In this document: in pieces, positions 13,047 to 62,067 of the stretch
Layout of the letters: each line of letters opens with the position of its first letter
Position numbering within the stretch: position 1 is the first letter of the stretch
Assembly: GCA_001414345.1 (NCBI GenBank)
Contig: LLCB01000027.1
Coordinates: 1-64,000 of the forward strand
DNA length: 64,000 nt
Reading direction: 5' to 3'
From: Hymenoscyphus infarciens
Lineage: Eukaryota > Ascomycota > Leotiomycetes > Helotiales > Helotiaceae
The notes under the pieces: model-generated
The model's database searches: none
The model's input: the letters and a program-made list of their open reading frames with translations, nothing else
Told to the model about the DNA's origin: nothing
Program-made: the position numbers and the translations under genes

Positions 13047-13171
13047 CTGTCACGTATTTTTGGGTTGAAAACGCTCTGAGGAGCACCTCGGGCATGCTGA
13101 CACACCCTGCCAAGGGTCGGATCTTACGTGTATATCCGACCATGAGTTTATAAGAACCGGTTTTTACGTAC
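13047..13171 (+). repeat. Left end of giant element (terminal inverted repeat)
   Basis: From 13102 to 13171 this equals the reverse complement of 61895-61964. It contains a small dyad, GTCGGAT and ATCCGAC separated by 11 bp (13115-13139). From 13047 to 13101 it is related to the right end only in patches (CTGTCACG, AGCACCT..GGCATGC). Unlike the inside, it is not RIP-mutated. Confidence 0.85.
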
Positions 13172-16100
13172 TTGATTAATTTATTAATTACCTATATAAA
13201 AAAAAGTATAAGGTAATAGATTTATTTATCGATTACCTTATAATAAATTTAAGAGAAATAGAAGTAGATAATCGATTTATTTATTAATTATACTAGTAAA
13301 AATAATACTAGGTAATCGATTAATTTATTAATTACTTTACTAGTAATAATAATAATAGTAATCGATTTATTTATCGATTACCTTACTAGAAATAATAATA
13401 CTAGGTAATTGATTTATTTATTAATTACCTTATTAGAAATAATAATACTAAGTAATCGATTTATTTATTAATTACCTTACTAGGAATAATACTACTAAGT
13501 AATCGATTTATTTATCGATTACCTTACTAGAAATAATAATACTAGGTAATTGATTTATTTATTAATTACTTTACTAGAAATATTAATACTATTTTATTAA
13601 TTACCTTACTAGAAATAATACTACTAGTAATAATACTAGGTAATCGATTTATTTATCAATTATCTTACTAGTAATAATAATACTAGGTAATTGATTTATT
13701 TATTAATTACCTTACTAGAAATAATAATACTAGGTAATCGATTTATTTATTAATTACCTTACTAGTAATATTCATACTATTTTATCGATTACTTTACTAG
13801 AAATAATACTATTAGTAATAATACTAGGTAATTGATTTATTTATCGATTACCTTACTAGTAATAATAATACTAGGTAATCGATTTATTTATTAATTATCT
13901 TACTAGAAATAATAATACTAGGTAATTGATTTATTTATTAATTATCTTACTAGTAATAATACTAGGTAATAATACTAAGTAATCGATTTATTTATCGATT
14001 ATCTTACTAGTAATAATAATACTAGGTAATCGATTTATTTATCGATTACCTAGCTAGTAATAATAATACTAAGTAATTAATTTATTTATCGATTACTTTA
14101 CTAGAAATAATAATACTAGGTAATCGATTTATTTATTAATTACTTTACTAGAAATAATAATACTAGGTAATCGATTTATTTATCGATTATCTTACTAGTA
14201 ATAATACTACTAGGTAATCGATTTATTTATTAATTACTTAGCTAGTAATAATAATACTAGGTAATCGATTTATTTATCGATTACCTTACTAGAAATAATA
14301 ATACTAGGTAATTAATTTATTTATTAATTACCTTACTAAAAATAATAATACTAGATAATTAATTTATTTATTAATTATCTTACTAGTAATAATAATACTA
14401 GGTAATCGATTTATTTATTAATTACCTTACTAAGAATAATACTACTAGATAATCGATTTATTTATCAATTACCTTACTAGAAATAATAATACTAAGTAAT
14501 CGATTTATTTATTAATTACCTTACTAGAAATAATAATACTAGATAATCGATTTATTTATTAATTACTTTACTAGAAATAATAATACTAAGTAATCGATTT
14601 ATTTATCAATTACCTTACTAGAAATAATAATACTAAGTAATTAATTTATTTATTAATTATCTTACTAGTAATAATAATACTAGGTAATTAATTTATTTAT
14701 TAATTACCTTACTAGGAATAATACTACTAAGTAATCGATTTATTTATTAATTACCTTACTAGAAATAATAATACTAAGTAATTAATTTATTTATTAATTA
14801 CCTTACTAAAAATAATAATACTAAGTAATTAATTTATTTATTAATTACCTTATTAGAAATAATACTACTAGGTAATTAATTTATTTATTAATTACCTTAC
14901 TAGAAATAATAATACTAAGTAATCGATTTATTTATTAATTACCTTACTAGAAATAATAATACTAAGTAATCGATTTATTTATCGATTATCTTACTAGTAA
15001 TATTAATACTATTTTATTAATTACCTTACTAGAAATAATACTACTAGTAATAATACTAGATAATCGATTTATTTATTAATTACCTTACTAGTAATAATAA
15101 TACTAGGTAATCGATTTATTTATTAATTACCTTATTAGAAATAATAATACTAGGTAATCGATTTATTTATCAATTACCTTACTAGTAATAATACTAAGTA
15201 ATAATACTAGGTAATCGATTTATTTATCAATTACTTTACTAGAAATAATACTATTAGGTAATCGATTAATTTATCGATTACCTTACTAGGAATAATACTA
15301 CTAGATAATCGATTTATTTATTAATTACTTTACTAGAAATAATAATACTAAGTAATCGATTTATTTATTAATTACCTTACTAGAAATAATAATACTAGGT
15401 AATCGATTTATTTATCAATTACTTTACTAGAAATAATAATACTAGGTAATTAATTAATTTATTAATTATCTAACTAGAAATAATAATACTAGATAATAAT
15501 ACTAGGTAATCGATTTATTTATCGATTATCTTACTAGAAATAATAATACTAGGTAATCGATTTATTTATCGATTACTTTACTAGAAATAATACTACTAGG
15601 TAATCGATTAATTTATTAATTATCTAACTAAAAATAATAATACTAAGTAATTGATTTATTTATTAATTACTTTACTAGAAATAATAATACTAGATAATCG
15701 ATTTATTTATCGATTACCTTACTAGGAATAATACTACTAGGTAATCGATTTATTTATTAATTACTTTACTAGAAATAATAATACTAGATAATTAATTTAT
15801 TTATTAATTAGCTTACTAGAAATAATAATACTAAGTAATTAATTTATTTATTAATTACTTTACTAGAAATAATACTACTAGGTAATTGATTTATTTATTA
15901 ATTATCTTACTAGTAATAATAATACTAGATAATCGATTTATTTATCGATTACCTTACTAAGAATAATAATACTAAGTAATCGATTTATTTATTAATTACT
16001 TTACTAGAAATAATAATACTAGGTAATTGATTAATTTATCGATTATCTTACTAGAAATAATAATACTAGGTAATCGATTTATTTATCAATTACTTTACTA

Positions 16101-19100
16101 GAAATAATACTACTAGGTAATCGATTTATTTATTAATTACTTTACTAGAAATAATAATACTAGATAATTAATTTATTTATTAATTACCTTACTAGAAATA
16201 ATAATACTAAGTAATTAATTTATTTATTAATTACTTTACTAGAAATAATACTACTAGGTAATTGATTTATTTATTAATTATCTTACTAGTAATAATAATA
16301 CTAGATAATCGATTTATTTATCGATTACCTTACTAAGAATAATAATACTAAGTAATCGATTTATTTATTAATTACTTTACTAGAAATAATAATACTAGGT
16401 AATTAATTAATTTATCAATTATCTTACTAGAAATAATAATACTAGGTAATTAATTTATTTATCGATTACTTTATTAGAAATAATAATACTAGGTAATTAA
16501 TTAATTTATTAATTACCTTACTAGAAATAATACTACTAAGTAATCGATTAATTTATTAATTATCTAACTAGAAATAATAATACTAAGTAATCGATTAATT
16601 TATTAATTACTTTACTAGAAATAATAATACTAGGTAATCGATTTATTTATCGATTACCTTACTAGTAATAATACTAGGTAATAATACTAGGTAATCGATT
16701 TATTTATCGATTATCTTACTAGAAATAATAATACTAAGTAATCGATTTATTTATTAATTACTTTACTAGAAATAATAATACTAGGTAATTAATTAATTTA
16801 TTAATTATCTAACTAGAAATAATAATACTAGATAATAATACTAGGTAATCGATTTATTTATCGATTATCTTACTAGAAATAATAATACTAGGTAATCGAT
16901 TTATTTATCGATTACTTTACTAGAAATAATACTACTAGGTAATCGATTAATTTATTAATTATCTAACTAAAAATAATAATACTAAGTAATTGATTTATTT
17001 ATTAATTACTTTACTAGAAATAATAATACTAAGTAATTAATTAATTTATCGATTATCTTACTAGGAATAATACTAATAGATAATCGATTTATTTATTAAT
17101 TACCTTACTAGAAATAATACTACTAAGTAATTAATTAATTTATTAATTACCTAACTAGAAATAATAATACTAGGTAATCGATTTATTTATTAATTACCTT
17201 AATAGAAATAATAATACTAGGTAATCGATTTATTTATCGATTACTTTACTAGAAATAATACTAAGTAATCGATTTATTTATCAATTACCTTAGTAATAAT
17301 AATACTAGGTAATCGATTTATTTATCAATTACCTTAATAGTAATACTACTAGGTAATCGATTTATTTATCGATTATCTTATTAGAAATAATACTAAGTAA
17401 TCGATTTATTTATCAATTACTTTACTAGAAATAATACTAAGTAATTAATTTATTTATTAATTACTTTACTAGAAATAATACTACTAAGTAATCGATTAAT
17501 TTATTAATTACCTTACTAGAAATAATAATACTAGGTAATCGATTTATTTATCAATTACCTTACTAGTAATAATACTAGGTAATAATACTAGGTAATCGAT
17601 TTATTTATCAATTATCTTACTAGTAATAATAATACTAGATAATCGATTTATTTATCGATTACCTAGCTAGTAATAATAATACTAAGTAATCGATTTATTT
17701 ATCGATTATCTTACTAGAAATAATAATACTAGGTAATCGATTTATTTATCGATTATCTTACTAGAAATAATAATACTAGGTAATTGATTAATTTATCGAT
17801 TATCTTACTAGAAATAATAATACTAGGTAATCGATTTATTTATCAATTACTTTACTAGAAATAATACTACTAGTAATAATACTAGGTAATCGATTAATTT
17901 ATCGATTACCTTAGTAGTAATAATACTAGATAATAATACTAGGTAATCGATTTATTTATCTATTATCTAGCTAGAAATAATACTACTAGGTAATCGATTA
18001 ATTTATCGATTACTTTACTAGAAATAATAATACTAGGTAATCGATTAATTTATTAATTACCTTACTAGTAATAATAATACTAGGTAATCGATTTATTTAT
18101 TAATTACTTTACTAGAAATAATAATACTAGATAATCGATTTATTTATCGATTACTTTACTAGAAATAATACTACTAGGTAATTGATTTATTTATTAATTA
18201 CCTTTATAGTAATAATACTAGGTAATATCGATTATAGTACTAGTAATAATACTAGGTAATCGATTTATTTATTAATTACCTAGGTAGTAATAATAATACT
18301 AGGTAATCGATTTATTTATTAATTATCTAGTTAGTAATAATAATACTAGGTAATCGATTTATTTATCGATTACCTTACTAGGAATAATACTAGTAGGTAA
18401 TCGATTAATTTATTAATTATCTTACTAGAAATAATACTACTAGGTAATTGATTAATTTATTAATTATTTAACTAGAAATAATAATACTAGGTAATCGATT
18501 TATTTATTAATTACCTTACTAGAAATAATAATACTAAGTAATTAATTTATTTATTGATTACCTTACTAGGAATAATACTAGTAGGTAATCGATTTATTTA
18601 TTGATTACTTTATTAGAAATAATACTACTAGTAATAATACTAAGTAATTGATTTATTTATTAATTACCTTACTAGAAATAATACTAGGTAATCGATTTAT
18701 TTATTAATTACCTTAGTAATAATAATACTAGGTAATCGATTTATTTATCGATTATCTAGCTAGTAATAATAATACTAAGTAATTAATTTATTTATCGATT
18801 ACCTTACTAGAAATAATAATACTAGGTAATCGATTTATTTATTGATTACTTTACTAGAAATAATAATACTAAGTAATCGATTTATTTATTAATTACTTTA
18901 CTAGAAATAATAATACTAGGTAATCAATTAATTTATTAATTATCTTACTAGAAATAATAATACTAGGTAATTGATTAATTTATTAATTACTTTACTAGAA
19001 ATAATAATACTAGGTAATCGATTTATTTATCTATTACTTTACTAGTAATAATAATACTAGGTAATTAATTTATTTATCAATTACCTTACTAGAAATAATA

Positions 19101-21765
19101 ATACTAGGTAATTGATTTATTTATTAATTACCTTACTAGTAATAATACTAGGTAATAATACTAGGTAATCGATTTATTTATCGATTATCTTATTAGAAAT
19201 AATACTACTAGGTAATCGATTAATTTATTAATTACCTTATTAGTAATACTACTAGGTAATCGATTAATTTATCGATTATCTTACTAGAAATAATAATACT
19301 AGGTAATCGATTTATTTATTAATTACCTTACTAGTAATAATAATACTAGGTAATCGATTAATTTATCGATTACCTTACTAGAAATAATACTACTAAGTAA
19401 TTGATTAATTTATTAATTATCTAATTAGAAATAATAATACTAGGTAATCGATTTATTTATTAATTACCTTATTAGAAATAATAATACTAGGTAATCAATT
19501 AATTTATTAATTATCTTACTAGAAATAATAATACTAAGTAATTAATTTATTTATCGATTATCTTAGTAATAATAATACTAGGTAATCGATTTATTTATCA
19601 ATTACTTAGCTAGTAATAATAATACTAGGTAATCGATTTATTTATTAATTACTTTACTAGAAATAATAATACTAGGTAATCGATTTATTTATTAATTACT
19701 TTACTAGAAATAATAATACTAGGTAATCGATTTATTTATCGATTACTTTACTAGAAATAATAATATTAAGTAATCGATTAATTTATTAATTACTTTACTA
19801 GAAATAATAATACTAGATAATTAATTAATTTATTAATTACCTTACTAGAAATAATAATACTAGGTAATCGATTTATTTATCTATTACCTTACTAGTAATA
19901 CTACTAAGTAATTGATTAATTTATCGATTATCTTACTAGAAATAATAATACTAAGTAATCGATTTATTTATCGATTACCTTACTAGTAATAATAATACTA
20001 GATAATCGATTTATTTATTAATTACCTTACTAGGAATAATACTACTAGGTAATCGATTTATTTATCGATTACTTTACTAGAAATAATAATACTAGGTAAT
20101 TAATTTATTTATTAATTACCTTACTAGAAATAATAATACTAAGTAATTAATTTATTTATTAATTACCTTACTAGTAATATTAATACTATTTTATCGATTA
20201 CCTTACTAGAAATAATACTACTAGTAATAATACTAGATAATCGATTTATTTATCGATTATCTTACTAGTAATAATAATACTAGGTAATTAATTTATTTAT
20301 TAATTATCTTACTAGAAATAATAATACTAGGTAATCGATTTATTTATTAATTACCTTACTAATAATAATACTAAGTAATAATACTAGATAATCGATTTAT
20401 TTATTAATTACTTTACTAGAAATAATACTACTAGGTAATTAATTAATTTATCGATTACCTTACTAGGAATAATACTACTAAGTAATCGATTTATTTATCA
20501 ATTACCTTACTAGAAATAATAATACTAAGTAATCGATTTATTTATTAATTATCTTACTAGAAATAATAATACTAGATAATTGATTTATTTATCGATTACT
20601 TTACTAAGAATAATACTACTAGGTAATTGATTTATTTATTAATTACTTAGCTAGTAATAATAATACTAGATAATCGATTTATTTATTAATTACCTTACTA
20701 GAAATAATAATACTAGGTAATTGATTTATTTATTAATTACCTTACTAGAAATAATAATACTAGGTAATCGATTTATTTATTAATTATCTTACTAGAAATA
20801 ATAATACTAAGTAATCGATTTATTTATCGATTACCTTACTAGGAATAATACTACTAGGTAATTGATTTATTTATTGATTATCTTACTAGTAATAATAATA
20901 CTAGGTAATCGATTTATTTATTAATTACTTTACTAGAAATAATAATACTAGGTAATCGATTTATTTATCAATTACCTTATTAGAAATAATAATACTAGGT
21001 AATCGATTAATTTATTAATTATCTTATTAGAAATAATAATACTAAGTAATTAATTTATTTATTAATTACTTTATTAGAAATAATAATACTAAGTAATCGA
21101 TTAATTTATTAATTACTTTACTAGAAATAATACTATTAGGTAATTGATTAATTTATTAATTATTTAACTAGAAATAATAATACTAGGTAATTAATTAATT
21201 TATCAATTACCTTACTAGAAATAATAATACTAAGTAATTAATTTATTTATTAATTACCTTACTAGTAATAATACTAAGTAATAATACTAGGTAATCGATT
21301 TATTTATTAATTATCTTACTAGAAATAATAATACTAGGTAATTAATTTATTTATTAATTACTTTACTAGAAATAATACTACTAAGTAATCGATTAATTTA
21401 TTAATTACCTAACTAGAAATAATAATACTAGATAATCAATTTATTTATTAATTACCTTACTAGAAATAATAATACTAGGTAATTAATTAATTTATCGATT
21501 ATCTTACTAGGAATAATACTAGTAGATAATCGATTTATTTATTAATTACCTTACTAGAAATAATACTACTAGGTAATTGATTTATTTATCGATTACTATA
21601 CTAGAAATAATACCTTACTAGTAATAATACTAAGTAATCGATTTATTTATCTATTACTTTAATAGTAATAATTCTAGGTAATAATACTAGGTAATCGATT
21701 TATTTATCGATTACCTAGGTAGTAATAATAATACTAGGTAATTAATTTATTTATTAATTATCTTC
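13172..21765 (+). repeat. Left array of 47-bp hairpin repeats
   Basis: Roughly 180 units of 47 bp (some 44). Each has a 26-bp palindrome, arms GGTAATCGAT and ATCGATTACC around TTATTT, then a spacer TTACTAGAAATAATAATACTA. Copies differ mainly by C-T/G-A changes in the arms (ATCGAT, ATTGAT, ATCAAT, ATTAAT). Interspersed variants carry an extra ACTAGGTAATAAT or a shortened palindrome (TACTATTTTATTAATTACC, at about 13590, 13775, 15005 and 20175). The array starts immediately inside the terminal repeat and no gene lies in it. Confidence 0.95.
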
Positions 21766-22559
21766 TCTTATATAAGTAAGCTAATATACGTTACCTAACT
21801 TAAATTTATATAAGCTACGTTATTACTTAATATAGCTTTCTTAGAGTACTATTCTTAATATCTTTATAGTTTAAAACACTCTTTAATCCTACTTTACTAT
21901 ATTTATTATTCTCTTTAAACATTTTGAAATTCTACTAAGAGATCTATAATTAAACTTTTACTTTATATAACCTTTATATAATACTAAACTTTATACTTAA
22001 TCCTTATCTATTAATAGACTATCTTAAGATCTCTCTATTTATAGATCTCTTATTATTATATTATTTAAATATAGTCTTACTAATTCTTATAATACTAATT
22101 TAAAATACTTTTTTTATAAACTCTATACTTAAATTAATACTTTAAACTCTAATTAAATTTAATATTAACTTAAAAGTTATTAAAAAAGGTAACTAGCCTA
22201 ATATAGTCTTTTTAAAACCTGATTTAAGTAATGTAAGAAAGTATTTTATAGATTATTATTTTACCTTTTAGATTAAAATAATAAGAACTGATTAATAGTT
22301 TACTAATATATAGTAAAGTATTTTAAAGTAGACTATAATAAAGGTAAGTAATACTAGAAGAAGGTTATAGATTTAGAGTATAAAAATAGGCTATTCTCTT
22401 CTAAAAGATAATATTTTATAAGAAACTATCTTAAAAGAGACTATCTTAAAAGAGGGTTTCCTAAAAGGTAGTTTTTTAAAAAGTAGCTATCTAAGAGAGT
22501 ATATAATAAAGGGAGTTAAACGGTTAAGATAACTAGTTCTATAAAGAGAGGTTATTAAG
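21766..22559. other. AT-rich core, no gene assigned
   Basis: RIP-type sequence following the left array. A short run of related 15-bp motifs (AACTATCTTAAAAGAG and variants) lies near 22420-22470. No frame could be followed with confidence. Confidence 0.5.
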
Positions 22560-23530
22560 GTCTTTCTATAAAGGTAGGAACTTCTTTTAAAAGTAATTAT
22601 AATATAGAACTACTAAGTAATAGGGAATTTTTAAGTAATAATATAAACGTAGTATTTTAATATCTAGTTATATTATAGAGACCTTTTTAGAAGGTATAAA
22701 GTTTAGAAATATTATCTAATATAGATAAAAGCTTTATAAAGTATATAACTAGTTAATTATAAAATTAACTTAGAAAAGGACCTAGTAGTAGTTTATACTA
22801 TACCTAAGAAACTAGTTATTCTAAAAATAGTCTACTAAGTACTCTTTTAAGTCTACTAATAAAAGCTTTCTTTAATTCTTAAGAAAAACTATTATAGATT
22901 ATTTCTTTTCTTATATTATAAGAATATACTAAGACTAGTAATCTTATATAAGTTAAGTTAGATAAATTAAGTTAGAAAGCTAACTAGGAAATTATTAATC
23001 TTCTTTCTAAAGGTATAATAGATACTTATAATATTATAAAATAAGCTTATAAAAATATATAAGCTACTCTATCTATTATAAACACCTAAGCTAAATTAAT
23101 TAAATAAGTATACCTTAATTTATAGACTACTCTAGTATAAGAAGAAAAATTATATTAATTTCTACTTTCTTAAAACTAGTAAATATATAGAAAACGAAGA
23201 TAATAAATATTAAATACTTAATAAGAGAAGGAAAGCTTATAATTAGTTAAATAAGATTTATAAATAAAAAAGAAACGTTAAGAAATTTAGAAAAAAGATA
23301 CCTTTTTAAGATATAAAAAGGTATATAAGAATAAATATAGTAAGTAAAAGCACCTTTAATAAACTAAAATATAATAATAAGAATATAGATAAGGATTCTT
23401 TTATAAATACTAATAAGTAAGATAATAAAGATAATATTAGACTTCTATAAATTAAATAGTTATATAAAAATTATAAGTTTATTATTTAACTTCTAAAGAA
23501 TAATTTAATAATTAACCTTATATTCTTTAA
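22560..23530 (+). pseudogene. Decayed reading frame 1, unidentified
   Basis: One plus-strand frame can be followed for about 320 codons if TAA/TAG are taken as mutated Gln or Trp codons. The reading is rich in Lys, Gln and Arg and predicted to be coiled-coil-like in its second half, with a W-x-x-N-W-E-I-I-x-L-L-S-K-G-I-I-D segment near 22975-23025. I do not recognise the family. Some fungal tyrosine-recombinase (DUF3435) proteins have a similarly charged C-terminus, but no R..H-x-x-R..Y residues were found, so this is not claimed. Confidence 0.4.
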
Positions 23531-24419
23531 GTATTCTATTATAATTAAAAAGCTATAGTTAACTAACTCCTCTTACTCTACTCTATATTTATTACTAATT
23601 TAATCTCTACTTTACTTATAATATCTATTATACTAATTAATAGATACTAATTAGTAATAGATTAGAAGATATACTAGGTTATAAAGTATACTAGAATAGG
23701 TTAGGAATAATTATAGTATTAGAAGGAATTATAGTAATAGGCTATAGAATTATAGTAAAGTAGAATCGCTTTCTAAGTAATATAGTAATAGAATTTAATA
23801 GTACTACTTTAGTAGAAAAAAGGTAAATATAACTTATTATAATTTAAATTAGTAAGCTATAATATCTATTACTTCTTAGATATATAGTACTATTATTTAA
23901 ATAAAGAAGTTATATAAACATTTATATTTAGATAAAGTAAGTAGGTTTTATTACTCTTTATATATATAATATTATTATTTCTTTTTTTTATTTTATTTAC
24001 TTATATATATCTATATATTCTAAACTTCTTTATTAGAAGTTTTATTAATCTTCTTCTATAAGCTACTTTATTATTCTTTTCTTTTAGTATAGCTCTATAT
24101 ATTCTAAGTATATATTTTATTAATTATTATGTTTATAATACTCTTTATTTTTCTTTTAGTCTTAATTACTTAGTATTACTTTTCTTTATTATATCCTTCT
24201 TTTAGTAGAGTATAAGTATATTATAAGAGTTAACTAATAGTAGAAGAAACTAGGATTAGAATATAGAAGAAACCTAGTAAAACCTAACATTATATTAATA
24301 TTCTTATTTAAAGCTATAAATAAGAATAATAGCGTCTTTAATTAATATTATTACTAGTATTCTTAACGCTTTCTTTATTAAAATATTAAAATCTAGATAA
24401 AAAACATTTATATATCCTA

Positions 24420-25860
24420 TTTATTAATACTTCTTCTTACTTTTCTTTCTTATTAATCTCTCTATATATTTACTCTTAGCCTTTCTCTTCCTTATATTAG
24501 CTATTCTTTCTTCTATAGCTCTCTTTCTCTTCTTAGCCTTTACCTTCTTAGCCTTCTCTTTTATATCCTTCTCCTTTATATCTTTCTCCTTCTCCTCTAT
24601 TATGATTTTTAGTTAAAACCTTATCTAGTAAAGCTCTAGAGCCTTTTAATAACTTAGTAAGTGTTATTATATATACTAGTAATAGATGTTAACCTTAATT
24701 ATTTTAGAATAATTATTTCTTAAACTTTTAAATAAGAATTAAGTTATAAATAGAGCTATATAATAATACTAAAAAACCTTTTTATCTCTACTATTATAAA
24801 GAATCTCCTTTATATAGTAATACTAGTATATTATATTAATAACTAGGTTATATATATAAGTAAAGTTAAAGGTATATATATTAATAGTACTTTTAGATAT
24901 TAGTAGTAGTAGAAGATCTAGAACTCTATAGATTATTTTACCTAACTTAGAAATAGTTATTAACTTAGATTTAGAATTTTAATATAGTGTTAGAGTAAAT
25001 TAAATCTAATTCTTATACTTATAATTAAAAAATATATTATAAAGATCCTTTATTACTATTATCTTCGACCTAGCCTTTAATCTAGCCTTTAATCTAGCTA
25101 TAGATCTTAGTTTCTTTAGAGTTAGCGCTTCTAGGTTAACTTCCTCTTCTTCCTCTATTACTTATAAGAGAGATATTCTATTAGTAAATAGATATTTCTT
25201 AAGTTTATTAGAAACACTATTTTATAAAGTACTACTAGTTAAGTTAGGTTATAAATTAAAGAGTCTAAGTATACTTAAGCCTACTTCTTTTATTATATAT
25301 TTTTCCTTATCTATAAGTGTTTTAGTATTTAGAATTAAATCTAGTTTATATCTTATATTATTTATTTATACTAGACTAAGAGTTACTATATTAATTAGAC
25401 TAAACTTTCTATTTATAAGATCTTTTTACTATTATTAAGAAAGAAGTTTATATATATCCTTCTAATCCTTATATATATTATTTATATTAAGTTAGAAGAT
25501 ATTATAGATATTAAGCTAACTCTTCTTTAAGTATATTAAAAGAAAGAGTTCTAGTTTATTACCTTTATAAGCTAAAAATTTACTCTATTTTTAAATAGGT
25601 TTATAATCTAATATCTTAATAAAAAGATTATTACTTTTAACTATCTAGACCTATCTCTTTATAATATCTATAATATCTATTTTAATACTATCTATTTTCC
25701 TAGAAATTACTTTATTAAAGTTTATATATAATAAATAGTCTATTTTTAGTAAGTTAGAATATTAAAGATAGTTAGTTAGAACTTTATATAAAACTTTTTA
25801 AATTATATATACTACTAGGTATAAATCTAAATACTCTACTCTCTATACTTAATTACTAAT
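24420..25860 (-). pseudogene. Decayed reading frame 2, unidentified
   Basis: A minus-strand frame runs for about 480 codons without an indel, interrupted only by TAA/TAG. The last 60 or so codons (24421-24610) contain no stop and encode a highly basic, helical tail made of KEKDIKEKDIKEKAKK-like repeats. Upstream is an acidic EEEEEV stretch followed by LKKLRSIARLKARLKARSK. A mid-section (about 24880-25000) of 50 stop-free codons is Leu/Ile-rich. Stop-free runs this long are unlikely by chance at this base composition. The family is not recognised. Confidence 0.5.
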
Positions 25861-29853: not shown

Positions 29854-29858
29854 TCCTC

Positions 29859-46969: not shown

Positions 46970-47600
46970 TAAATAATTTATATAAGAAACTTTAAGTTAA
47001 ATACTCTTACTTAAAGAACCTTTATCTAAAATTCGTTTAATTATACTAACGAAAAATTAATAACTTTATTAAGTTAAAAGCTTAAAAGTTAGGTAAAGAG
47101 AAGTTATTTAAGATTAATAAAGGAATAATTAAATAAAAGGTAGCTATAAGCTTATAGCTCTACTCTACTTAAGATAGTAATACTTTAATTCTACTAATTA
47201 AGCTAAAGAGCTTAAAAAATAAGAAAGTAAATATATAATAAGAAGTAGTATAGTAATTAGAATTAAAAGACGCTTATTAACCTACTCTTCTACCTATATA
47301 TAAAATAGTATAAAAATAATTATAAAAAACCTAGGAAATAGTTATAAAAGAATATACTAATTTACTCTTTTAAGATATAATTTCTATTTATAAATTAACC
47401 TTATCTACTTACTAAACTTAGTAATATAAACCTATCTACCTCTTTAAAAATAGAACTCTAAAATCTAATAGTATATCTTCTAAATTAGAGCTATTACCTT
47501 TATCTAATAATTAATACCTACTAAAGATTTAATAATACTAGCTATATTCTTTACTAAATATAGAAACCTTTTTATAAAATTAGACTATTAATAGTTTAAT
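46970..47600 (+). pseudogene. Decayed reading frame 6, unidentified
   Basis: About 200 plus-strand codons read through TAA/TAG stops with mixed composition (for example KLKSLKNKKVN and TLSTYQTQQYKPIYLFKN). It could be a fragment of a larger gene. Not recognised. Confidence 0.35.
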
Positions 47601-50600
47601 TCTATAAAACATCTATATATATTATACGATTTATAAAGTATAGAGTATTAGCTAAAGAATAAAAAACAGATACCGAAGACGGATTATTTAATAGTAGTTA
47701 AGAAGAAGCTTGTTTTTAACTAATTTTATATACTAAAAAATAATTTAATAATAATAGAAAAAGACTTATTAATACTTAAATTATAAGAGCCTAAATCGCT
47801 CTTATAATTTAATATTAAAGTAGGATATATATATATTAAAACGTAAGAATATTTAAAATATTATAAAGAAGGATAATTACTAATATATTTAAGAATACTA
47901 GTATTATATTATAAAGGGCTAGATTTTTCTTCTATATATAAGAAGTTGAAAAAACCTAGCTAGATATATAATAAATAACTCTAGAATAATACTAGCTAGC
48001 TTAGTCTTAATTATTATTAAGATAATATTATTCTACTACTATAAATATACTTAGTAAACGATAGAAGAATATTTATTCCTCTTAGTTACTATTCTTAAGT
48101 TTAATAATAACTTAAATATTATTTTAATAATAAGAACTAGTACTTTAATACTTCTTTTAGATAAGCTCTTAAGACTTATTATTATCAGCGTTAGTATTAT
48201 TAGTATCTATATTAAATCGATATTTATACTTAAGCTCTAAGACCTTTTACTATTTAATTTATTAGTTATATTCTAAATAAGTATAAAGAAAGGCTTACTT
48301 AATTAGACTTCTTATACTTTTAAATATCTAGCTTAGTAATATTATAGAATTCCTTAAGCTATAGTTTATTAGTAAAAGAATAAAAGAGATAGTTTTATAT
48401 TTCTTATAATAGAGATACTCTTAAGAGTTAATTAGTAATGTAATAAGTCTTTATACTAATTAGCTATATCCTTAAGCTTATATATCTCCTTTTTAGCTTT
48501 AAATAAAGGAATAACTATTTCCTTCTACTTCTTAATAATAGCTTTTAACTAGCTTAACTTATTATAAATACTATTAAACTTAGCTTATAACTTAACTAAG
48601 AAAAGGGATTTTAGAAAAAGCTAAAGTTATATATTACTTTAAGTAGTAAAGAATTCGTTCTTACTTATACTATCTCTACTAAAGTTATAAAGTTATTAAC
48701 TTATATAACTTAGTATACTAGCTAGAAGCGCTTAATTAACTAGGTTACTATTAGTAGGTTTACTAGTAAGAGTATTAAGAGTATTAGAAGTAGATATAGT
48801 AGTAAATTAATAATAAGATAATATATTAGAATAATAAGTATTTAAGAGGTTATAGTAAGAAGATTCTAAGAGGTTGACTATAAGGGCTTATAAGAGAACA
48901 AGAGTACTAGAACTTATACTAAGAGTAATAGGTTATAATAATAATATATAATAAACTTAAGAGTTTATATCTTAATATAAAGTTCTATAATAAGCTAAAG
49001 ACATATAGTAAGGCTAAAGACGTATAATAAGGCTAAAGACTTATAATAAAGACTTATAATAAAGACTTATAATAAAGACTTATAATAAAGACTTATAATA
49101 AAGACTTACTAGAGAAGCTTCTATAAGGTTAGGCGTAAAAGCTTATAATTTATAAGAAAGACTTATAATAAAAGCTTACTAGAGAAGAATAATTAAAAGA
49201 CTATTAAGTAATAAGGTTATATTAAGTTAAAGTTAAAGTTAAAATTAAAGTTAAAGTTATTCTAAAGTAGAGAATTAGTAAGGCCTTTACTAAGCTATAA
49301 CGCTAAGGCTTTATTTAATTATATATTAAGTTAAGTCTTTATTTATTTATATATTTAGATTTATTTACTCTTTAAATAATATTCCTTTAATAAAATCTCT
49401 CTATATAGTTTAACTATCTATTTATCTTAAACTATACTACTCTATACTTACTTAGTTTACCTTATTTTTATTAGAGCTATATCTAGTAATAATTATATTA
49501 AAACCTTTAATATAATCTCTATAATTTTTATTATTTACCTCTTTACTATTCTTACTATCTTCTATATTATCCTTATTACTACTATTACTATTACTATCTT
49601 CCTTACTATTAATATTATATTTAAAGGGAACGTTGCTCTAGTCTAGAGTAGTATCTAAGATAGTATTTAAATATATTAAAGATATAGTTAAGAGAAAAAT
49701 ATAGATTCTTTAAAGTATATTTAAATACTATTAGTCTTTATAAAAACCTTTAGATTAAACTTATATTTACTTACCTTTAAGCCTATTTTTAAAAATCTTA
49801 TTCTTAATATTCTTATAATAATTTAATAAGAACTTAGCTATAAGTACTCTTTTAATAATTTATATGTTTTATAAGTAGAGCTCTTATAATATTAAAAAAT
49901 AAGAATAAGAAATTAAAAGTACTTAGAGTATATTAATTAACTAATTTACTACTTAAATCTATTTAGAAATTATAAACTTAACTTCTTTAGTAGCTCTCTT
50001 ATACTTTAAAATAGTATTAATTCTATATAGAATAGTAATATTATTTATAAAACTTATAAGTAAGCCTAAGTTCTCTTTATCTAAAAGACTAAGCTAAGTA
50101 CTTATTCTAATCTTATACTATTATATTCTATAATTTAATTCTTCTTTAAAAGATATAGAGTTAAATATTTATAATAATATTAGTAGTAGATTATAATTTT
50201 TAGGTAGTTAATTATATAATCTTTAGATTTCTTAACTTCTTTTAACTATAGAGGGTAGGTAATAGAATAAGGCTTTTATATATTCTACTAATTTTTTTAT
50301 ACTCTTTATATCGAAATAGTTATAAATATTCTAAACTTCTTAAACTTACTAAGTAGCTAGTTTATAATATTTATAAACCTCTACTTTAATTTAAAGATAA
50401 ATTTAAGAGTTTTAATACTATTTATAATTTGTACTTTTAACCTTCTAATCTTTATACCTTTAACTAGTTCTTAATAACTCTTATATTAATAATTTATATA
50501 CGTATTCTAATAACTATCTAATAGAACGTTTTCTAGATAAATAATATAGAATAATCTCTAAAGAGAAGCGTTTTATTCTTTTAAGTACTTATTTTTTAAT

Positions 50601-52139
50601 ATTAACTCTAGAAGGCTTAAGAGTGTTAAAGACTAATTAGTATTTATTCTTATAAGCTAGAATTCTATTTAAGTAAGTAAATAGTCTTTCCTTTATTACT
50701 ATTAATATAGCTTCTTTCTTTTTCTTAAACTACTTCTCTTAAATATACTAATAATCTTATAATTTATATTATATATTATCTTTTTTATCTATTAATTTAC
50801 TTATAATAAGATAGGCTTAGGTAGTAGTAATAGTATCTCTATATTAAGTATAGAGAGATTAAGTTCTCTTATATCTTTTATTTAAAGTAGAACCGAGTTC
50901 TTCTCTCTATATAAGTCTTTAATATTTTATTTAAGTATTTAGAAGAGCTTCTCTTAATAAAGTAGAGTATATATAATAGATTAAGACTAAATAACTTTTT
51001 AAAGACTAGTCTTTTTCTACTCTCTCTCTATTACTTAATCTAAGAAATTATTATTAGTAAGTACTCTACTATAATTAATAATCTAAAGTATAGGAGTATT
51101 AATAAAAAGCGTTTATAGTATATCTTATCCTATATACTATTTTAGAGTACTCTCTCTTAAAATAAGACTAAAATTTATATATAATATTATATTAAAATAT
51201 AATATATACTTAGTTAAGAAGTTAATTAAATATTAATTTTAAAAGATATACTATAACTTAAAAAGTCTCTTTATAATAAAAATTAATAAGTTAAAGAGTT
51301 ATTTTATACTAGTAGACTATATTTATTAACCTAGTTTAATCTAATCCTTTAAATTTATCTCTAGCTTTATTTTTAGCTATAGCTACTTAAAAATAATAAG
51401 AATAACTATTATTAGAAATATTAGCCTTTAAACTATTCTCTTTTTTAGAAGAAAGTGTTATACTATTCCCTACTTTATTAGACGTAGAAACTACTATATC
51501 TATTTCTACTATACTAAGAGTAATACTAGATTTAGATTTAGAGTCTTAAATAAAGAATTTACTATTACTATAAGGCTACTAACTAAAAGGCGGATTTCCT
51601 TATCTCTTTTTACGTTTTTATTAAAAATTACTATCTTAGCTCTAATTATATAAAGCTATTAGTCTATTATTATTATTATCTTAGAAGAAATAAGTAAAGT
51701 ATATATAACTTAAAGATAGAGAAATAGTCTACTTATAGTCTAGTTAGTATTTATTAACTTTAGTGTTAAAAAGCTCTTAACGTCTATTTTCTACTAGTAA
51801 CTAGTTATAATAGGTATATGCTTATATTTTTTTAAGATTAGAAATATAATAATAATACTAGTGAATAAGTAACTTTTATAATCTTATTACCTAAGAATAT
51901 TAAGAAAGCTTTTTAACTATAGAAACTTTATAAAAGAGCTTAAGAAGTTATAAATTAAAAGTAGATTATAAAAAGATAGTAGTAGTTAGAAAAAACCTCT
52001 CTTTAATAATTGTATATGCTCTTATATATAGGTATTTATAGTATTAGATATTTTTTTCTTTTATAATAGCTAAAATATATTAGCTTATAGAATATACTAG
52101 AATATACTTAAAGATTATACTTATAAAGTAAGTAATAAA
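47601..52139. other. AT-rich core, no gene assigned
   Basis: RIP-type DNA. It contains a 13-bp tandem repeat (GACTTATAATAAA, about 49020-49115) and short AGTTAAAGTTAAAGTT runs near 49230. No frame was followed far enough to call. Confidence 0.4.
49020..49115 (+). repeat. 13-bp tandem repeat
   Basis: GACTTATAATAAA in about six near-perfect copies. The unit is not a multiple of three, so it is unlikely to lie in a coding frame. Confidence 0.8.
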
Positions 52140-53080: not shown

Positions 53081-55145
53081 TTACTCTTAAGAATTACTAT
53101 TAGTTAAAGCTTTATTCTATTTCTATTATATACTCCTTTACTCTTATAACGTAATATTCGCCTTTTACTAAATAAGATATACTTATTTACTTCTCTAAGA
53201 AAACCTATATACTTTACTATATATAACCTAAGTTGTATTCTAGCTAGTATATATAAGATATCTAGAAAGTAAGTAAATCTTTAAAACCTTTATAAACTAT
53301 TATTAATATCTAGTCTAAACTAGTTATTTACTCTACTTAGCTATACTAAATAAAGAATAAACTTAGGAACTTAGATTCTAATTTAATACCTTAACTACTA
53401 TAAATAAAATAGATTTATAGAACGTTATATACTTAGGCCTTATAAAAGATATTATTAATAGCTATAAAGCTCTTAGTTATATAATATTAGATAGAATATA
53501 AAGTTATTATAATAAATATAATAATATCTTTTATAAGATTCTTTAAAATGTTACTAAATAGACTAGTATAGACTCGTCACTCTTTAGTAATCTAATAACT
53601 ACTAACTACTATAATTACTATCTTTAGAAAGAAGTAGAATTCTTTAATAGAAGTTCTTACTAATTTATAAATAGTCTTAGTTTAGAAAGAGATATAATAA
53701 AGATATAGTATACCTATAATTTAATAATTCTTATTAATAAAGTTTACTAAGATAATCTATAACATAGTTACTAGTATATTACTTAAAGTAAGACTCTTAG
53801 TCTTTCCTTACTCTAAAATACTAAGTACTACTTATAGCTACTATAAGTACTCTATACTAGGTTACGTAACTACCTTTATTATTAAAATTATTACTACTAT
53901 TATTTTAATTACTCTTATTTATTAAAATAAATAAAAGAAATAAAGTATTAAATAATATCTCTTATAAAGTCTATACTAAGTAAATAGCTTTCTTTTCTCT
54001 ACTACTATCTAGGTAAAACTTAACCTATTATTCTAAGAGCTAGCTATAGTAAGGATTTACCTAATCTTATTTATATTATCTAGCTTTAATTTTATCTAGC
54101 TCTATTATAATTTATAGTTAATAGATTGTCTTATTTTATAATATATATATTAAAGGAACTATTACTTTATAATAAGTTATTATTATAAAATCTTATTTAT
54201 AAAATACTACCTTTTAAAATAACTATTCTAATAAGTATTTATCTTAGATAAACTTATATAGAATAGTACTTTTTAAATATACCTCTTAGAATAACTCTAT
54301 ATATATATATATAGTAGAAGTAAGAGTAAAGTTTATAGTAATATTATTAGTAACTTTACTAGTAAAGTTTATATAAGTTTAACCTATATTAGATTAGTTA
54401 TAGTAAAAGGATTAGAAAGATTAAGTTTTCTAGTTTCTATCTAGTTACCTTTCCTTAGTAATAAAAGTACCTCTTATTTAACTAAGGATTTAACCTCTCT
54501 ATTAAATAAATTAAGACTTAAGACTTTTTATTTTAAATTATAAAATAAAATAACTCGATAATATTAGTATATTTAGTAGTAAAAGTTTATATATATATAA
54601 CGCTTTACTCTCTAGTATAGTCTTCTCTATCTACTACCTTATACTAGGTTATCTATAACCTTTCTATATTAGCTAAAATTCTTATAACTTCTTATAATAT
54701 AATAGGGTTTATTTATCTCCTAACTACCTCTTAGCTACCTTTTAACTACCTTACTATATATTATTTAAAATTACTATTAGTTAGAGAATAAGTTTATCTA
54801 GCTTTTTCTCTCTTTATCGACTATACTAGTAAAGATAATAAAGTTCTATCTAGTATAATTTAGTAACTATATAACCTCCTTATACTCTTATTATCTTTAA
54901 AATCGTTATACCTTTTTAATAGCTATCTTAGTAGCCTTTCTCTTATTATTTAGTACTAAGAAGGCGATAGATAAAACCTTATAAATTCTACACCTACTAT
55001 ACCTTAATAAGAAGATAATAGGATATATAATATAAGATCTTTATTATACTTAGCTTTGTTTTTATTTTTTTTAGTTTCTTTTTAGCTATCTAAAGCCAGC
55101 GTTATATAGACGTACTTAGACTCTACTTTATTAGTAGAAAGACTA
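53081..55145. other. AT-rich core before the right array, no gene assigned
   Basis: Both strands offer long readings through TAA/TAG, but without stop-free stretches good enough to choose a frame. Confidence 0.4.
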
Positions 55146-58100
55146 TACTCAATTACTTAGTATTACCTAGTATTATTACTACTAAAGTAATCGAGAAATA
55201 AGTCTATAACCTAGTATTACTATTATTAGTATTAAAGTAATTAATAAATAAATTAATTATCTAGTACTATAACTACTAGAGTAATAGATAAATATATTAG
55301 TTCTAAGATAATCTAAATAAATCGATTACCTAGTATTATTAGTTTTATTTACTTATTAGCTAAGGTAATAGCTAAGTATATAAATCTAGATAAGCTTATA
55401 TATATATTAATTAAATAAAAATTAAGTATACTAGTAAGTATATTTAATCTAAGAGAAGATTCTTATAACTATATTACTTAAAAGTCTTTTAAAGATATAT
55501 TAGACTTTCTCTTTTTCTTATTTAATAGTACTATTAAGATAATTAATAAATAAATTAATTACTTAGTAATTAATAAATAAAATCGATTACCTAGAGATAT
55601 TACTATAAAAGTAATTAATAAATAAATCGATTATCTAGTAGTTTTACTAGTACTATAATCAATAAATAAATCGATTATAAAGATTACTACTAAAGTAATT
55701 AATAAATAAATCGATTATCTAGTATTATTATTACTAGTAGAGTAATCGATAAATTAATCGATTACCTAGTATTATTATTACTAGTAGAGTAATCGATAAA
55801 TAAATCGATTACCTAGGAAGATTACTACTAAGGTAATCGATAAATAAATCGATTAGTACTATTACTAGTACTATAATCGATAAATAAATCGATTACCTAG
55901 TATTATTATTACTAGTAGAGTAATCGATAAATAAATCGATTACCTAGTAGTATTACTAATACTATAATCGATAAATAAATCGATTACCTAGTATTATTAT
56001 TCCTAGTAAGGTAATCGATAAATAAATCGATTATCTAGTAGTATTATTACTAATAAGGTAATCGATAAATAAATCGATTACCTAGTATTATTATTTCTAG
56101 TAAGGTAATTAATAAATAAATCGATTACCTAGTATTATTTCTAGTAAGGTAATTAATAAATTAATCGATTACTATTATTATTATTACTAATAAGATAATC
56201 GATAAATAAATCGATTACTTAGTATTATTAGTACTAAGGTAATTAATAAATAAATCAATTACTTAGTATTATTATTTCTAGTAAGATAATTGATAAATTA
56301 ATCGATTACCTAGTATTATTATTACTAAGGTAATTAATAAATAAATCAATTACTTAGTATTATTTCTAGTAAGATAATTAATAAATAAATCGATTACTTA
56401 GTAGTATTACTATTAAGATAATTAATAAATAAATCGATTACCTAGTATTATTTCTAGTAAGGTAATCGATAAATAAATCGATTACTTAGTAGTATTACTA
56501 TTAAGGTAATCGATAAATAAATCGATTACTTAGTATTATTATTTCTAGTAAGGTAATTGATAAATTAATTAATTACCTAGTATTATTATTACTAAAGTAA
56601 TTAATAAATAAATCGATTACCTAGTATTATTTCTAGTAAGGTAATCGATAAATAAATCGATTACCTAGTATTATTTCTAGTAAGGTAATTGATAAAATAG
56701 TATTAATATTACTAGTAAGATAATCAATAAATAAATCGATTACCTAGTATTATTATTTCTAGTAAGGTAATTAATAAATAAATCGATTACCTAGTATTAT
56801 TATTTCTAGTAAGATAATCGATAAATAAATCGATTACTTAGTATTATTATTACTAAGGTAATCGATAAATAAATCGATTACCTAGTATTATTTCTAGTAA
56901 AGTAATCGATAAATAAATCGATTATCTAGTAGTATTACTATTAAGGTAATTAATAAATAAATCGATTACCTAGTATTATTATTACTAAGGTAATCGATAA
57001 ATAAATCGATTACCTAGTAGTATTACTATTAAGGTAATCGATAAATAAATCGATTATCTAGTATTATTATTTCTAGTAAGGTAATTAATAAATTAATTAA
57101 TTACCTAGTATTATTATTACTAAGGTAATCGATAAATAAATCGATTACCTAGTATTATTTCTAGTAAAGTAATCGATAAATAAATCGATTATCTAGTAGT
57201 ATTACTATTAAGATAATTAATAAATAAATCGATTACCTAGTATTATTATTACTAAGGTAATTGATAAATAAATCGATTATCTAGTAGTATTACTATTAAG
57301 GTAATTAATAAATAAATCGATTACTTAGTATTATTATTTCTAGTAAGGTAATTGATAAATTAATTAATTACCTAGTATTATTATTACTAAGGTAATTAAT
57401 AAATAAATCGATTACCTAGTATTATTTCTAGTAAGGTAATTAATAAATAAATCGATTACCTAGTAGTATTACTATTAAGGTAATTAATAAATAAATCGAT
57501 TACTTAGTATTATTATTATTAAGATAATCGATAAATAAATCGATTACCTAGTATTATTTCTAGTAAAGTAATTGATAAATAAATTAATTACTATTATTAT
57601 TATTACTAATAAGGTAATTGATAAATAAATCGATTACTTAGTAGTATTATTCCTAGTAAGGTAATTAATAAATAAATCGATTATCTAGTATTATTATTTC
57701 TAGTAAGATAATTAATAAATAAATCGATTACCTAGTATTATTATTTCTAGTAAAGTAATTAATAAATAAATCGATTACCTAGTATTATTATTACTAAAGT
57801 AATTAATAAATAAATCGATTACCTAGTATTATTTTTAATAAAGTAATTGATAAATAAATTAATTATCTAGTATTATTTCTAGTAAGATAATCGATAAATA
57901 AATCAATTACTATTATTATTATTACTAGTAAGATAATCGATAAATAAATCGATTACCTAGTATTATTATTACTAAGGTAATTAATAAATAAATCGATTAC
58001 CTAGTATTATTATTTCTAGTAAGGTAATTAATAAATTAATCGATTACTTAGTATTATTATTACTAAAGTAATTAATAAATAAATCGATTACCTAGTATTA

Positions 58101-61100
58101 TTTCTAGTAAGATAATTAATAAATAAATCGATTACCTAGTAGTATTACTATTAAAGTAATTAATAAATAAATCAATTACTTAGTATTATTTCTAATAAAG
58201 TAATTAATAAATAAATTAATTACCTAGTAGTATTACTATTAAGGTAATCGATAAATAAATCGATTACCTAGTATTATTATTTCTAGTAAAGTAATTAATA
58301 AATTAATCGATTACCTAGTATTATTATTACTAAAGTAATTGATAAATAAATCGATTACCTAGTATTATTTCTAGTAAAGTAATTAATAAATAAATCGATT
58401 ACCTAGTATTATTTCTAATAAGGTAATCGATAAAATAGTATTAATATTACTAGTAAGGTAATTAATAAATAAATCGATTACTTAGTATTATTATTTCTAG
58501 TAAGATAATCGATAAATAAATCAATTACTTAGTATTATTATTTCTAGTAAAGTAATCGATAAATAAATCGATTACCTAGTATTATTTCTAGTAAGATAAT
58601 CGATAAATAAATCGATTACCTAGTAGTATTACTATTAAGGTAATTAATAAATAAATCGATTACCTAGTATTATTATTTCTAGTAAAGTAATTAATAAATT
58701 AATCGATTACTTAGTATTATTATTACTAAGGTAATTAATAAATAAATCGATTACCTAGTATTATTATTTCTAGTAAGGTAATCGATAAATTAATTAATTA
58801 CCTAGTATTATTATTACTAAGGTAATCGATAAATAAATCGATTACCTAGTATTATTTCTAGTAAGATAATCGATAAATAAATCGATTACCTAGTATTATT
58901 TCTAGTAAGGTAATTAATAAAATAGTATTAATATTACTAGTAAGGTAATCGATAAATAAATCGATTACCTAGTAGTATTATTCCTAGTAAGGTAATTGAT
59001 AAATAAATCGATTATCTAGTATTATTATTTCTAGTAAAGTAATTAATAAATAAATCGATTACCTAGTATTATTATTTCTAGTAAAGTAATTAATAAATAA
59101 ATCGATTACTTAGTATTATTATTACTAAGGTAATTAATAAATAAATCGATTACTTAATATTATTTCTAGTAAAGTAATTAATAAATAAATCGATTACCTA
59201 GTATTATTTCTAGTAAGGTAATCGATAAATAAATCGATTACTATTATTATTATTACTAGTAAGGTAATTAATAAATAAATTAATTACCTAGTATTATTAT
59301 TACTAAGGTAATTAATAAATAAATTAATTACCTAGTATTATTATTTCTAGTAAAGTAATTAATAAATTAATTAATTACCTAGTATTATTATTACTAAGGT
59401 AATTAATAAATAAATCGATTACTTAGTATTATTTCTAGTAAGATAATCGATAAATAAATCGATTACTTAGTAGTATTACTATTAAGGTAATCGATAAATA
59501 AATCGATTACCTAGTATTATTTCTAGTAAGGTAATTAATAAATAAATCGATTACCTAGTAGTATTACTATTAAGGTAATTAATAAATAAATCGATTATCT
59601 AGTATTATTATTTCTAGTAAGATAATCGATAAATTAATTGATTATCTAGTATTATTATTACTAAGGTAATCGATAAATAAATCAATTACCTAGTATTATT
59701 TCTAGTAAAGTAATTAATAAATAAATCGATTACCTAGTATTATTATTTCTAGTAAGGTAATCGATAAATAAATCGATTACTTAGTATTATTTCTAGTAAG
59801 GTAATTGATAAATAAATCGATTACTTAGTAGTATTACTATTAAGATAATCGATAAATAAATCGATTACCTAGTATTATTATTTCTAGTAAGGTAATTAAT
59901 AAATTAATTGATTACTTAGTATTATTATTACTAAGGTAATCGATAAATAAATCGATTACTTAGTATTATTTCTAGTAAAGTAATCGATAAATAAATCGAT
60001 TACCTAGTAGTATTACTATTAAGATAATCGATAAATAAATCAATTACCTAGTATTATTATTACTAAGGTAATCGATAAATAAATCGATTATCTAGTAGTA
60101 TTACTAGTAAGGTAATCGATAAATTAATCGATTACCTAGTATTATTATTACTAAGGTAATTAATAAATAAATCGATTATCTAGTATTATTTCTAGTAAAG
60201 TAATCGATAAATAAATCGATTACTTAGTAGTATTACTATTAAGGTAATTAATAAATAAATCGATTACTTAGTATTATTATTACTAAGGTAATTGATAAAT
60301 AAATCGATTACCTAGTATTATTTCTAGTAAGGTAATTAATAAATAAATTAATTACTATTATTATTATTACTAGTAAGGTAATTGATAAATAAATCGATTA
60401 CCTAGTAGTATTATTCCTAGTAAGGTAATTGATAAATAAATCGATTACTTAGTATTATTATTTCTAGTAAGGTAATTAATAAATAAATCGATTATCTAGT
60501 ATTATTATTTCTAGTAAGGTAATTGATAGAAAAATTGATTACTTAGTATTATTATTATTAAAGTAATTAATAAATAAATTAATTACTTAGTATTATTTCT
60601 AGTAAGATAATTGATAAATAAATCGATTACTTAGTATTATTTCTAGTAAGATAATTAATAAATAAATCGATTACTATTATTATTATTACTAGTAAGGTAA
60701 TTAATAAATAAATTAATTACTTAGTATTATTATTACTAAAGTAATTAATAAATAAATTAATTACCTAGTATTATTATTTCTAGTAAGGTAATTAATAAAT
60801 AAATCGATTATTTAGTATTATTATTTCTAGTAAGGTAATCGATAAATAAATCGATTATCTAGTATTATTATTACTAAGGTAATTGATAAATAAATTAATT
60901 ACTTAGTATTATTTCTAGTAAGATAATCGATAAATAAATCGATTACCTAGTATTATTTCTAGTAAGGTAATCGATAAATAAATCGATTACTATTATTATT
61001 ATTACTAGTAAGGTAATTAATAAATAAATTAATTACTTAGTATTATTATTACTAAAGTAATTAATAAATAAATCGATTACCTAGTATTATTATTTCTAGT

Positions 61101-61890
61101 AAGATAATTAATAAATTAATTAATTACTTAGTATTATTATTACTAAAGTAATTGATAAATAAATTAATTACCTAGTATTATTTCTAGTAAAATAATTAAT
61201 AAATAAATCGATTACTTAGTAGTATTACTATTAAGGTAATCGATAAATAAATCGATTACCTAGTATTATTTCTAATAAGGTAATTAATAAATAAATCGAT
61301 TATCTAATAGTATTACTATTAAGATAATTGATAAATAAATTAATTATCTAGTATTATTATTTCTAGTAAGATAATTAATAAATTAATTAATTACCTAGTA
61401 TTATTATTACTAAGGTAATTGATAAATAAATCGATTATCTAGTATTATTTCTAGTAAGGTAATTAATAAATAAATCGATTACTTAGTAGTATTACTATTA
61501 AGGTAATCGATAAATAAATCGATTACCTAGTATTATTATTATTAAGGTAATCGATAAATAAATCGATTACCTAGTATTATTTCTAGTAAGGTAATTGATA
61601 AATAAATCGATTACTTAGTATTATTATTTTTAGTAAGATTATTAATAAATTAATCGATTACCTAGTATTATTATTACTAATAAGGTAATCGATAAATTAA
61701 TCGATTACCTAGTATTATTATTTCTAGTAAAGTAATTAATAAATAAATCGATTACTTAGTATTATTTTTACTAGTATAATTAATAAATAAATCGATTACT
61801 TACTTCTATTTCTCTTAAATTTATTATAAGGTAATTAATAAATAAATCTATTACTTTATACTTTTTTTATATAAGTAATCGATAAATTAA
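55146..61890 (-). repeat. Right array of 47-bp hairpin repeats
   Basis: The same 47-bp (or 44-bp) unit as the left array but in the opposite orientation: arms GGTAATCGAT and ATCGATTACC around AAATAA, spacer TAGTATTATTATTTCTAGTAA. About 145 units. It starts loosely near 55150, with a repeat-free gap at about 55380-55530. Shortened units (AAAATAGTATTAATATTACT) recur at about 56695, 58435 and 58920, mirroring those of the left array. 61790-61890 matches the inner flank of the left terminal repeat. Confidence 0.95.
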
Positions 61891-62067
61891 TCGAGTACGT
61901 AAAAACCGGTTCTTATAAACTCATGGTCGGATATACACGTAAGATCCGACCCTTGGCAGGGTGTCTGTGCATGCCTAAGGTGCTGAGGAGCTTGAATTTA
62001 AGCGGTGAAAACTCTGCTATGTATACAGGGAAATGGGGTCACGTGAGACCCCCTTTTTCCGTGACAG
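61891..62067 (-). repeat. Right end of giant element (terminal inverted repeat)
   Basis: 61895-61964 is the exact inverted copy of 13102-13171. The outer part (61965-62067) is longer than on the left and contains an imperfect palindrome GGGGTCACGTGAGACCCC at 62036-62053, ending CGTGACAG. Confidence 0.85.

Follow-up and report, generated by a model that had tools for sequence, protein, structure and literature searches.

A giant fungal DNA transposon with palindrome-array arms, likely moved by a KDZ-type transposase

A 64,000-nucleotide stretch of the fungus Hymenoscyphus infarciens (contig LLCB01000027.1 of assembly GCA_001414345.1, positions 1 to 64,000, hereafter the window) contains a large element with inverted ends, which a first reading of the letters alone (the sequence-only reading) had proposed to be an undescribed giant transposon. 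We have searched the whole genome for its relatives, using the 65.6-Mb assembly of 742 contigs in which the window is contig C191, and the results make it virtually certain that the element is a transposon. It has transposed with 8-bp duplications at 18 sites, and it occupies at least 22 insertion sites when single ends are included. In our view it is very probably a giant DNA transposon that was likely moved by the KDZ-type transposase of its core, with about 316 palindromes as predicted docking sites that join its far-apart ends.

The evidence for transposition lies in the ends. The conserved tip was scored in 40 places among 42 candidates genome-wide, and 36 of the 40 tips pair as 18 insertions by their 8-bp flanks, 14 of them exactly and 4 with one transition (C/T or G/A). 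The tips fall into two types, 20 "G" ends (CACCTCGGGCATGCTGACAC) and 20 "A" ends (CACCTTAGGCATGCACAGAC), and every one of the 18 pairs consists of one G end and one A end; four ends (on C120, C237, C256, and C532) are unpaired. Such matches were close to absent from the controls. When the frame was shifted away from the tips by 1, 2, 3, 5, 8, 10, 15, or 20 bp, exact matches vanished and a single near match was left across all eight distances, and shuffled 8-mers gave a mean of 0.084 exact matches and a maximum of 2 (500 trials). The giant-transposon reading is strongly supported because these 18 pairs of duplications occur in one genome. Three pairs lie on a single contig (the window, C69:115546-156833, and C70), and the other 15 are split between contigs. 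No obvious motif is shared among the 18 duplications, and the flanks have a median GC content of 0.44 (at least 0.30 in 37 of the 40).

Within the window, the comparison of the 40 tips and the duplication place the ends of the element at 13084 and 61982, inside the limits of 13047 and 62067 proposed at first, giving a length of 48.9 kb with a nested long terminal repeat (LTR) element and about 41.1 kb without it. The left terminal inverted repeat (13084 to 13171, plus strand) has a G type end, CACCTCGGGCATGCTGACAC..., and the right one (61895 to 61982, minus strand) an A type end, CACCTTAGGCATGCACAGAC..., both delimited by their inverted match and the tip comparison. They are flanked by the target-site duplication CTGAGGAG at 13076 to 13083 and at 61983 to 61990, one of the 18 matching flank pairs. 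The sequence-only reading had suggested searching Pezizomycotina genomes for the tip and for inverted pairs of it; the present genome has 40 tips and 18 G/A pairs. It had also noticed that the outer ends are identical inverted copies, and the 70 bp at 13102 to 13171 are indeed the exact reverse complement of 61895 to 61964. When the 40 tips are aligned, the conserved tip begins 18 bp outside this match, at CACCT (left CACCTCGGG..., right CACCTTAGG...). The outermost 20 bp or so differ between the two ends of the window, and it is these bases that define the two end types. The element has the 5'-CA..TG-3' termini reported for Kyakuja in the accessible part of PMC12730594: 36 of the 40 ends start with CA (35 CACCT and 1 CACCG), and the remaining 4 start with TACCT (3) or TATCT (1), which are C-to-T changes.

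The same flanks bear on the possibility that the region is an assembly artefact joining two inverted copies of one array. Contigs often break inside the arrays, and at C69:49298-82247 two different insertions are joined, by either recombination or assembly: both of its ends are of the G type, one matching C63 and the other C115 in their duplications. Yet the two ends of the window share one 8-bp flank, and a further 17 pairs do likewise, including 15 whose two ends sit on separate contigs. An artefact is thus extremely improbable. For the ends, the shared flanks dispose of this doubt, which the sequence-only reading had raised itself; the length of an array may still be misassembled.

The core (21790 to 55100) was first described as holding unfamiliar genes, and the element as matching no named fungal kind. 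This description has to be revised in part, since one of the genes is, on the strength of its homology, most probably a KDZ-type transposase, whose superfamily is known; what stands is that we found no printed match for the size and the palindrome-array arms. The gene lies on the minus strand at 49692 to 52136, a span taken from a wider comparison with diverged families, and its reading is riddled with stops, about one per ten codons. The right part of the core recurs in these families at 71-73% identity in family B, 68-69% in family C, and 70-75% in others. In the best match to family B, one minus-strand frame reaches 401 bits, while none of the remaining five exceeds 181. A genome-wide search with the PF18758 profile had one match, at C32:51332-51916, and the C32 relative scores 56 bits for PF18758 (KDZ; cut-off 26.6) and 28.9 bits for CxC1 (cut-off 26.9). 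The window frame aligns to this relative in two pieces of 142 and 67 bits, running through the CxC1 region, whereas none of 300 shuffles exceeded 30 bits and none of 54 other core frames 28 bits. An AlphaFold2 model of P0001 was uninformative (mean predicted local distance difference test score of 38). Near the KDZ gene of C32, at 54800-56000, there is a reading with DUF7924 (PF25545, 35.7 bits), which was the only Pfam match among seven other readings scanned.

A KDZ gene in the core could also mean that a KDZ element is just a passenger within a decayed Starship or Polinton. The size and the cargo would be within the range of such elements, and neither marker gene was found, although decay makes these Pfam negatives weak: the DUF3435 captain had no match in the genome and none in the control genomes either, and DNA_pol_B_2 (protein-primed polymerase B) had no match in the genome and one, below the cut-off, in a control genome. 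However, the inverted ends and the 8-bp duplications on 18 insertions fit a DDE transposon. Furthermore, the core pieces with the KDZ gene and with a second gene (gene 2, see below) are colinear in the copies found, and both genes occur together in diverged families. We therefore consider a Starship or Polinton host very unlikely. The earlier contrast with these two kinds is favoured by the ends and duplications, although the marker-gene negatives carry little weight.

Between the tips and the core lie the two arms. The left one (13265 to 21612, plus strand) is a tandem array with a 47-bp period and the right one (55566 to 61799, minus strand) an inverted tandem array with a 44/47-bp period, both delimited with Tandem Repeats Finder and both built on the 26-bp palindrome GGTAATCGATTWATTTATCGATTACC. 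With up to 2 mismatches, there are 176 units in 13084-21790 and 140 in 55101-61982, 316 in total, of which 168 on the left and 131 on the right have no mismatch; none is in the opposite orientation in either arm. The search pattern tolerates changes of the repeat-induced point mutation (RIP) type and A/T changes in addition to two mismatches, and strongly altered units are missed. The mirror-image arrays of one 47-bp hairpin unit that the sequence-only reading described are confirmed, with a 47-bp period on the left, a 44-bp period on the opposite strand on the right, and a perfect unit that folds as an 11-bp hairpin. The units vary at eight C/G positions by RIP-type change and at one A/T position, and are otherwise nearly invariant. 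If the base that completes the palindrome is assumed to be ancestral, RIP-type changes affect 490 of 1408 cells on the left and 348 of 1120 on the right.

Do these arrays have a role? In family B, another palindrome, TAGTAGATATATATATCTACTA, itself perfect, stands at the left core edge on C461 in 11 units with a spacing of 48 bp. Among the matches listed, those to this palindrome are strong (mostly 91-100%) at that same edge of C595, C513, and C501; past the right core edge of C461, C668, C598, C513, C501, C609, and C615, they are weaker (75-82%). Those outside the left edge of C461 are known from the match rows alone, their letters being unread. The TAGTAGATATATATATCTACTA unit does not occur in the window, nor the window's unit in the family B stretches read. 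Family B thus shares the plan with a different palindromic unit, and an array plan that is kept while its unit is exchanged argues for function. Alternatively, this could be a KDZ transposon with passive satellite arrays, which change by slippage and unequal exchange and have no role in movement. Array lengths and spacing patterns that differ between copies, the lack of covariation within units, and a miniature that persists with 24 units in all are what such satellites could produce. They would account less well for the 316 counted units, in which nearly all variation is of the RIP type or falls on a single A/T position (both of which the pattern tolerates, strongly altered units going unseen), and for an array of an unrelated palindrome at the same place in family B. 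Passive arrays seem unlikely to us on balance, and we lean slightly towards arrays that are bound by a protein of the element.

Under the docking-site reading, the transposase would cut at the CA..TG ends and move the element by cut-and-paste with an 8-bp staggered cut, as in other KDZ elements. The arrays could load the transposase, directly or via the gene 2 protein, much as the long ends of Galileo hold repeats that its transposase binds, and would be the predicted docking sites by which this large element is gripped at both ends. This array-loading model is based on the 8-bp duplications of KDZ elements and on Galileo, whose long ends carry transposase sites within their tandem repeats according to the accessible part of PMC3688188. 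A recent burst would have been followed by mutation of the copies by a RIP-type process of the host.

Several results weigh against this picture. The transposase reading of the window, a decayed frame, matched no Pfam family even at an E value of 10, the genome-wide PF18758 search matched no copy of this element, and the C32 transposase reading had no homologue among 7991 candidates of the protein collection. There is no sign now that the hairpin is still under structural selection, since the two halves of one unit pair no better than halves of different units (left arm, 8.22 versus 8.12 of 10 pairs; right arm, 8.19 versus 8.14). The arrays range from about 2 to 9 kb among the arms measured, some of which are cut by the stretch fetched. 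Given C69, some of the joins that span arrays may be assembly errors. Finally, the miniature at C70:16144-17451 has only 24 units in its whole 1308 bp. These units are arranged head to head between both tips, with a perfect duplication, CGGGTGAG, which suggests that an element can be moved in trans with no more than its tips and some twelve units on each side, unless the core was lost after insertion.

Unit spacing in the arms could be read in 22 of the 40 ends. One pattern opens 6 of 10 G ends, and a second one opens 11 of 12 A ends. The pattern typical of A ends is also seen in two G ends (C138 and C69:82247), whereas C120, C69:49298, and C70:17451 match neither exactly. Moreover, in C256 a G-type outer arm leads into the right core edge. 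We read these mixed labels of end and spacing as the outcome of several kinds of exchange in which inverted arms took part, some of it perhaps being assembly error instead. A core that simply flips between fixed tips was dropped as an explanation, given the mixed spacing labels and C256.

The second gene of the core, gene 2 (46640 to 47190, plus strand), is decayed in the window, is kept in other families, and has an intact 359-aa frame at another place in the genome. No DNA of the core is better conserved than the block at 46642-47184, which is 78-80% identical in seven contigs of family B and 71-72% identical in another five. The plus-strand reading of gene 2 matches a frame on C32, which in turn has 88 matches in the genome, all but one with stops. 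The lone stop-free match is the 359-aa frame at C128:45197-46276, which lies outside any element found and is possibly a domesticated copy of gene 2. The minus reading has a small lead when family B is the sole comparison (182 versus 173 bits), but we assign the gene to the plus strand because the plus reading matches the C32 and intact frames. A Pfam scan of the intact relative gave matches below the threshold only. In a large protein collection, three unnamed proteins without a Pfam domain match the intact relative or its profile: two were found with the relative as query and two with the profile of the gene 2 alignment, one of the latter being new. One unnamed protein of the collection is 56% identical to the intact C128 frame.

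Gene 2 appears to travel with the transposase. Among the matches listed, it is on the same contig as the KDZ gene in 16 of 20 diverged contigs (7 of 8 in family B, 4 of 4 in family C, and 5 of 8 in the others). Because it accompanies KDZ in diverged families, we infer that its protein is a partner of the transposase. That this protein also binds the palindromes is conceivable, but less likely than not. Two gene 2 matches, about 10 kb apart, are found on each of C80, C225, and C703, and these paired matches make it probable that there are further element families with gene 2. One could go further and imagine a new clade of giant two-protein KDZ transposons in which the partner, gene 2, reads the palindrome arrays, the palindrome is matched to the partner in each family like a lock to its key, and the inverted arms recombine, shuffling the ends and rearranging the chromosomes of the host. 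This broader scheme is speculative, and we give it less credence than the array-binding model itself.

As first described, a decayed core lies between the arrays; it is very AT-rich and RIP-marked. Its length is 33.3 kb, or about 25.5 kb once the nested element is subtracted. Its colinear pieces recur in 17-19 places with 91-95% identity. Searches with four pieces of core DNA gave counts of colinear copies that include the window, omit pieces shorter than about 1 kb, and are lower bounds: at least 13 full-query copies and 4 long partial ones for 22.0-27.0 kb, at least 13 and 6 for 37.7-42.7 kb, at least 15 and 4 for 43.3-49.7 kb, and at least 15 and 3 for 50.0-55.1 kb, all with 91-95% identity. 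The nested LTR element (29870 to 37636), which the sequence-only reading labelled copia, is bounded by 164-bp repeats at 29870-30033 and 37473-37636, which differ at 7 of 164 sites, all by transitions. In C128, C450, C442, and C38, the interval matching window positions 22000-37702 is 7919 bp long, versus 15702 in the window, and the nested element is therefore missing from these four copies. The native size is thus about 41.1 kb, in line with the 41 kb estimated at first.

Comparison of the window with eight loci (eight of nine loci, in six other copies) revealed 1611 transitions as against 30 transversions among 27,986 sites. Hence, the copies were near-identical at landing and were then mutated by a C-to-T process, which we interpret as a young burst whose products were afterwards mutated by a RIP-type process of the host. 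The tips show RIP-type change in 14% of their C/G cells (171 of 1200, 40 tips), versus 31-35% in the palindromes of the window; they are hit less than the palindromes, yet are still hit. Of the explanations offered earlier for identical tips beside mutated interiors (selection, recent use, or exclusion from RIP), the lower mutation of the tips stands and their exemption does not. This lower mutation fits selection as well as an edge effect.

How does the element compare with known systems? We read it as a KDZ transposon with a plan like that of Foldback and Galileo. It has the 8-bp target-site duplications that are a trait of the KDZ superfamily (18 pairs among the 40 ends) and the long inverted ends of internal tandem repeats that are a Foldback-like trait (seen with Tandem Repeats Finder and in the unit counts). 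The superfamily is already known; what sets the element apart is the size and the palindrome-array arms, for which we found no printed description in the open-access literature. None was recognised there from titles and the openings of abstracts, and this literature lacks most subscription papers. A term search of the text of a review of giant transposons found no mention of KDZ or Zisupton (PMC6431247). Statements on the other known elements below refer to the accessible parts of the articles cited.

The fungal elements KDZ1 to KDZ3 of Cryptococcus are about 9-11 kb long, with inverted repeats of 139-241 bp and duplications of 8 bp, or 4-8 for KDZ2/3 (PMC12810828). They resemble the element described here in their KDZ transposase with a CxC1 domain, their inverted ends, and their 8-bp duplications, but differ from its native length of about 41 kb and its kilobase arms of palindromic tandem units. 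Giant KDZ elements are known from algae, with up to 30.3 kb in Ectocarpus and an active one of 31.7 kb in Chlamydomonas (PMC12477816). These share the superfamily, the giant size, accessory genes, and nested insertions, whereas their hosts are a brown and a green alga, array arms go unmentioned in that portion of the article, and the present element is larger. Zisupton has 8-bp duplications, and two Kyakuja families have CA..TG termini, 7-bp duplications, and no inverted repeats (PMC12730594). The element here has the termini of Kyakuja and the duplication length of Zisupton, and unlike the two Kyakuja families it combines inverted repeats with 8-bp duplications.

Foldback and Galileo share with it the long inverted ends with internal tandem repeats, the variable arm length, and the chimeric copies. 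In contrast, Galileo has a P-superfamily transposase, 7-bp duplications, and arms of about 0.3-1.2 kb, compared with 8 bp and arms of 2-9 kb here. A Pfam scan of eight readings, five of them from the core of the window, revealed no THAP-domain P-type transposase, a negative that decay weakens. Starships are also giant fungal elements, but Horizon has a tyrosine recombinase captain, none of which was found here (a weak negative), and palindrome arrays are unmentioned for Horizon and Icarus in the accessible text (PMC9594970).

If the proposed reading is right, cut-and-paste transposons of the KDZ type would be known to reach about 41 kb in a genome capable of RIP. A possible reason for the size is that ends tens of kilobases apart could be held together by hundreds of palindromic sites that are nearly alike. 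The 18 insertions, near-identical at landing and mutated independently since, are a natural experiment that allows dating the burst, measuring RIP from tip to core, and tracking exchange between inverted arms. Since contigs here break inside the arrays, similar elements may hide in other fungal assemblies.

The core has other conserved parts. Two blocks conserved in family B (37674-38677 and 39834-40279) and a further one (43736 to 45413) had no Pfam match when one reading of each was scanned. Outside the element, positions 1-12000 of the window are AT-rich too, with a strong RIP-type dinucleotide bias over most of their length.

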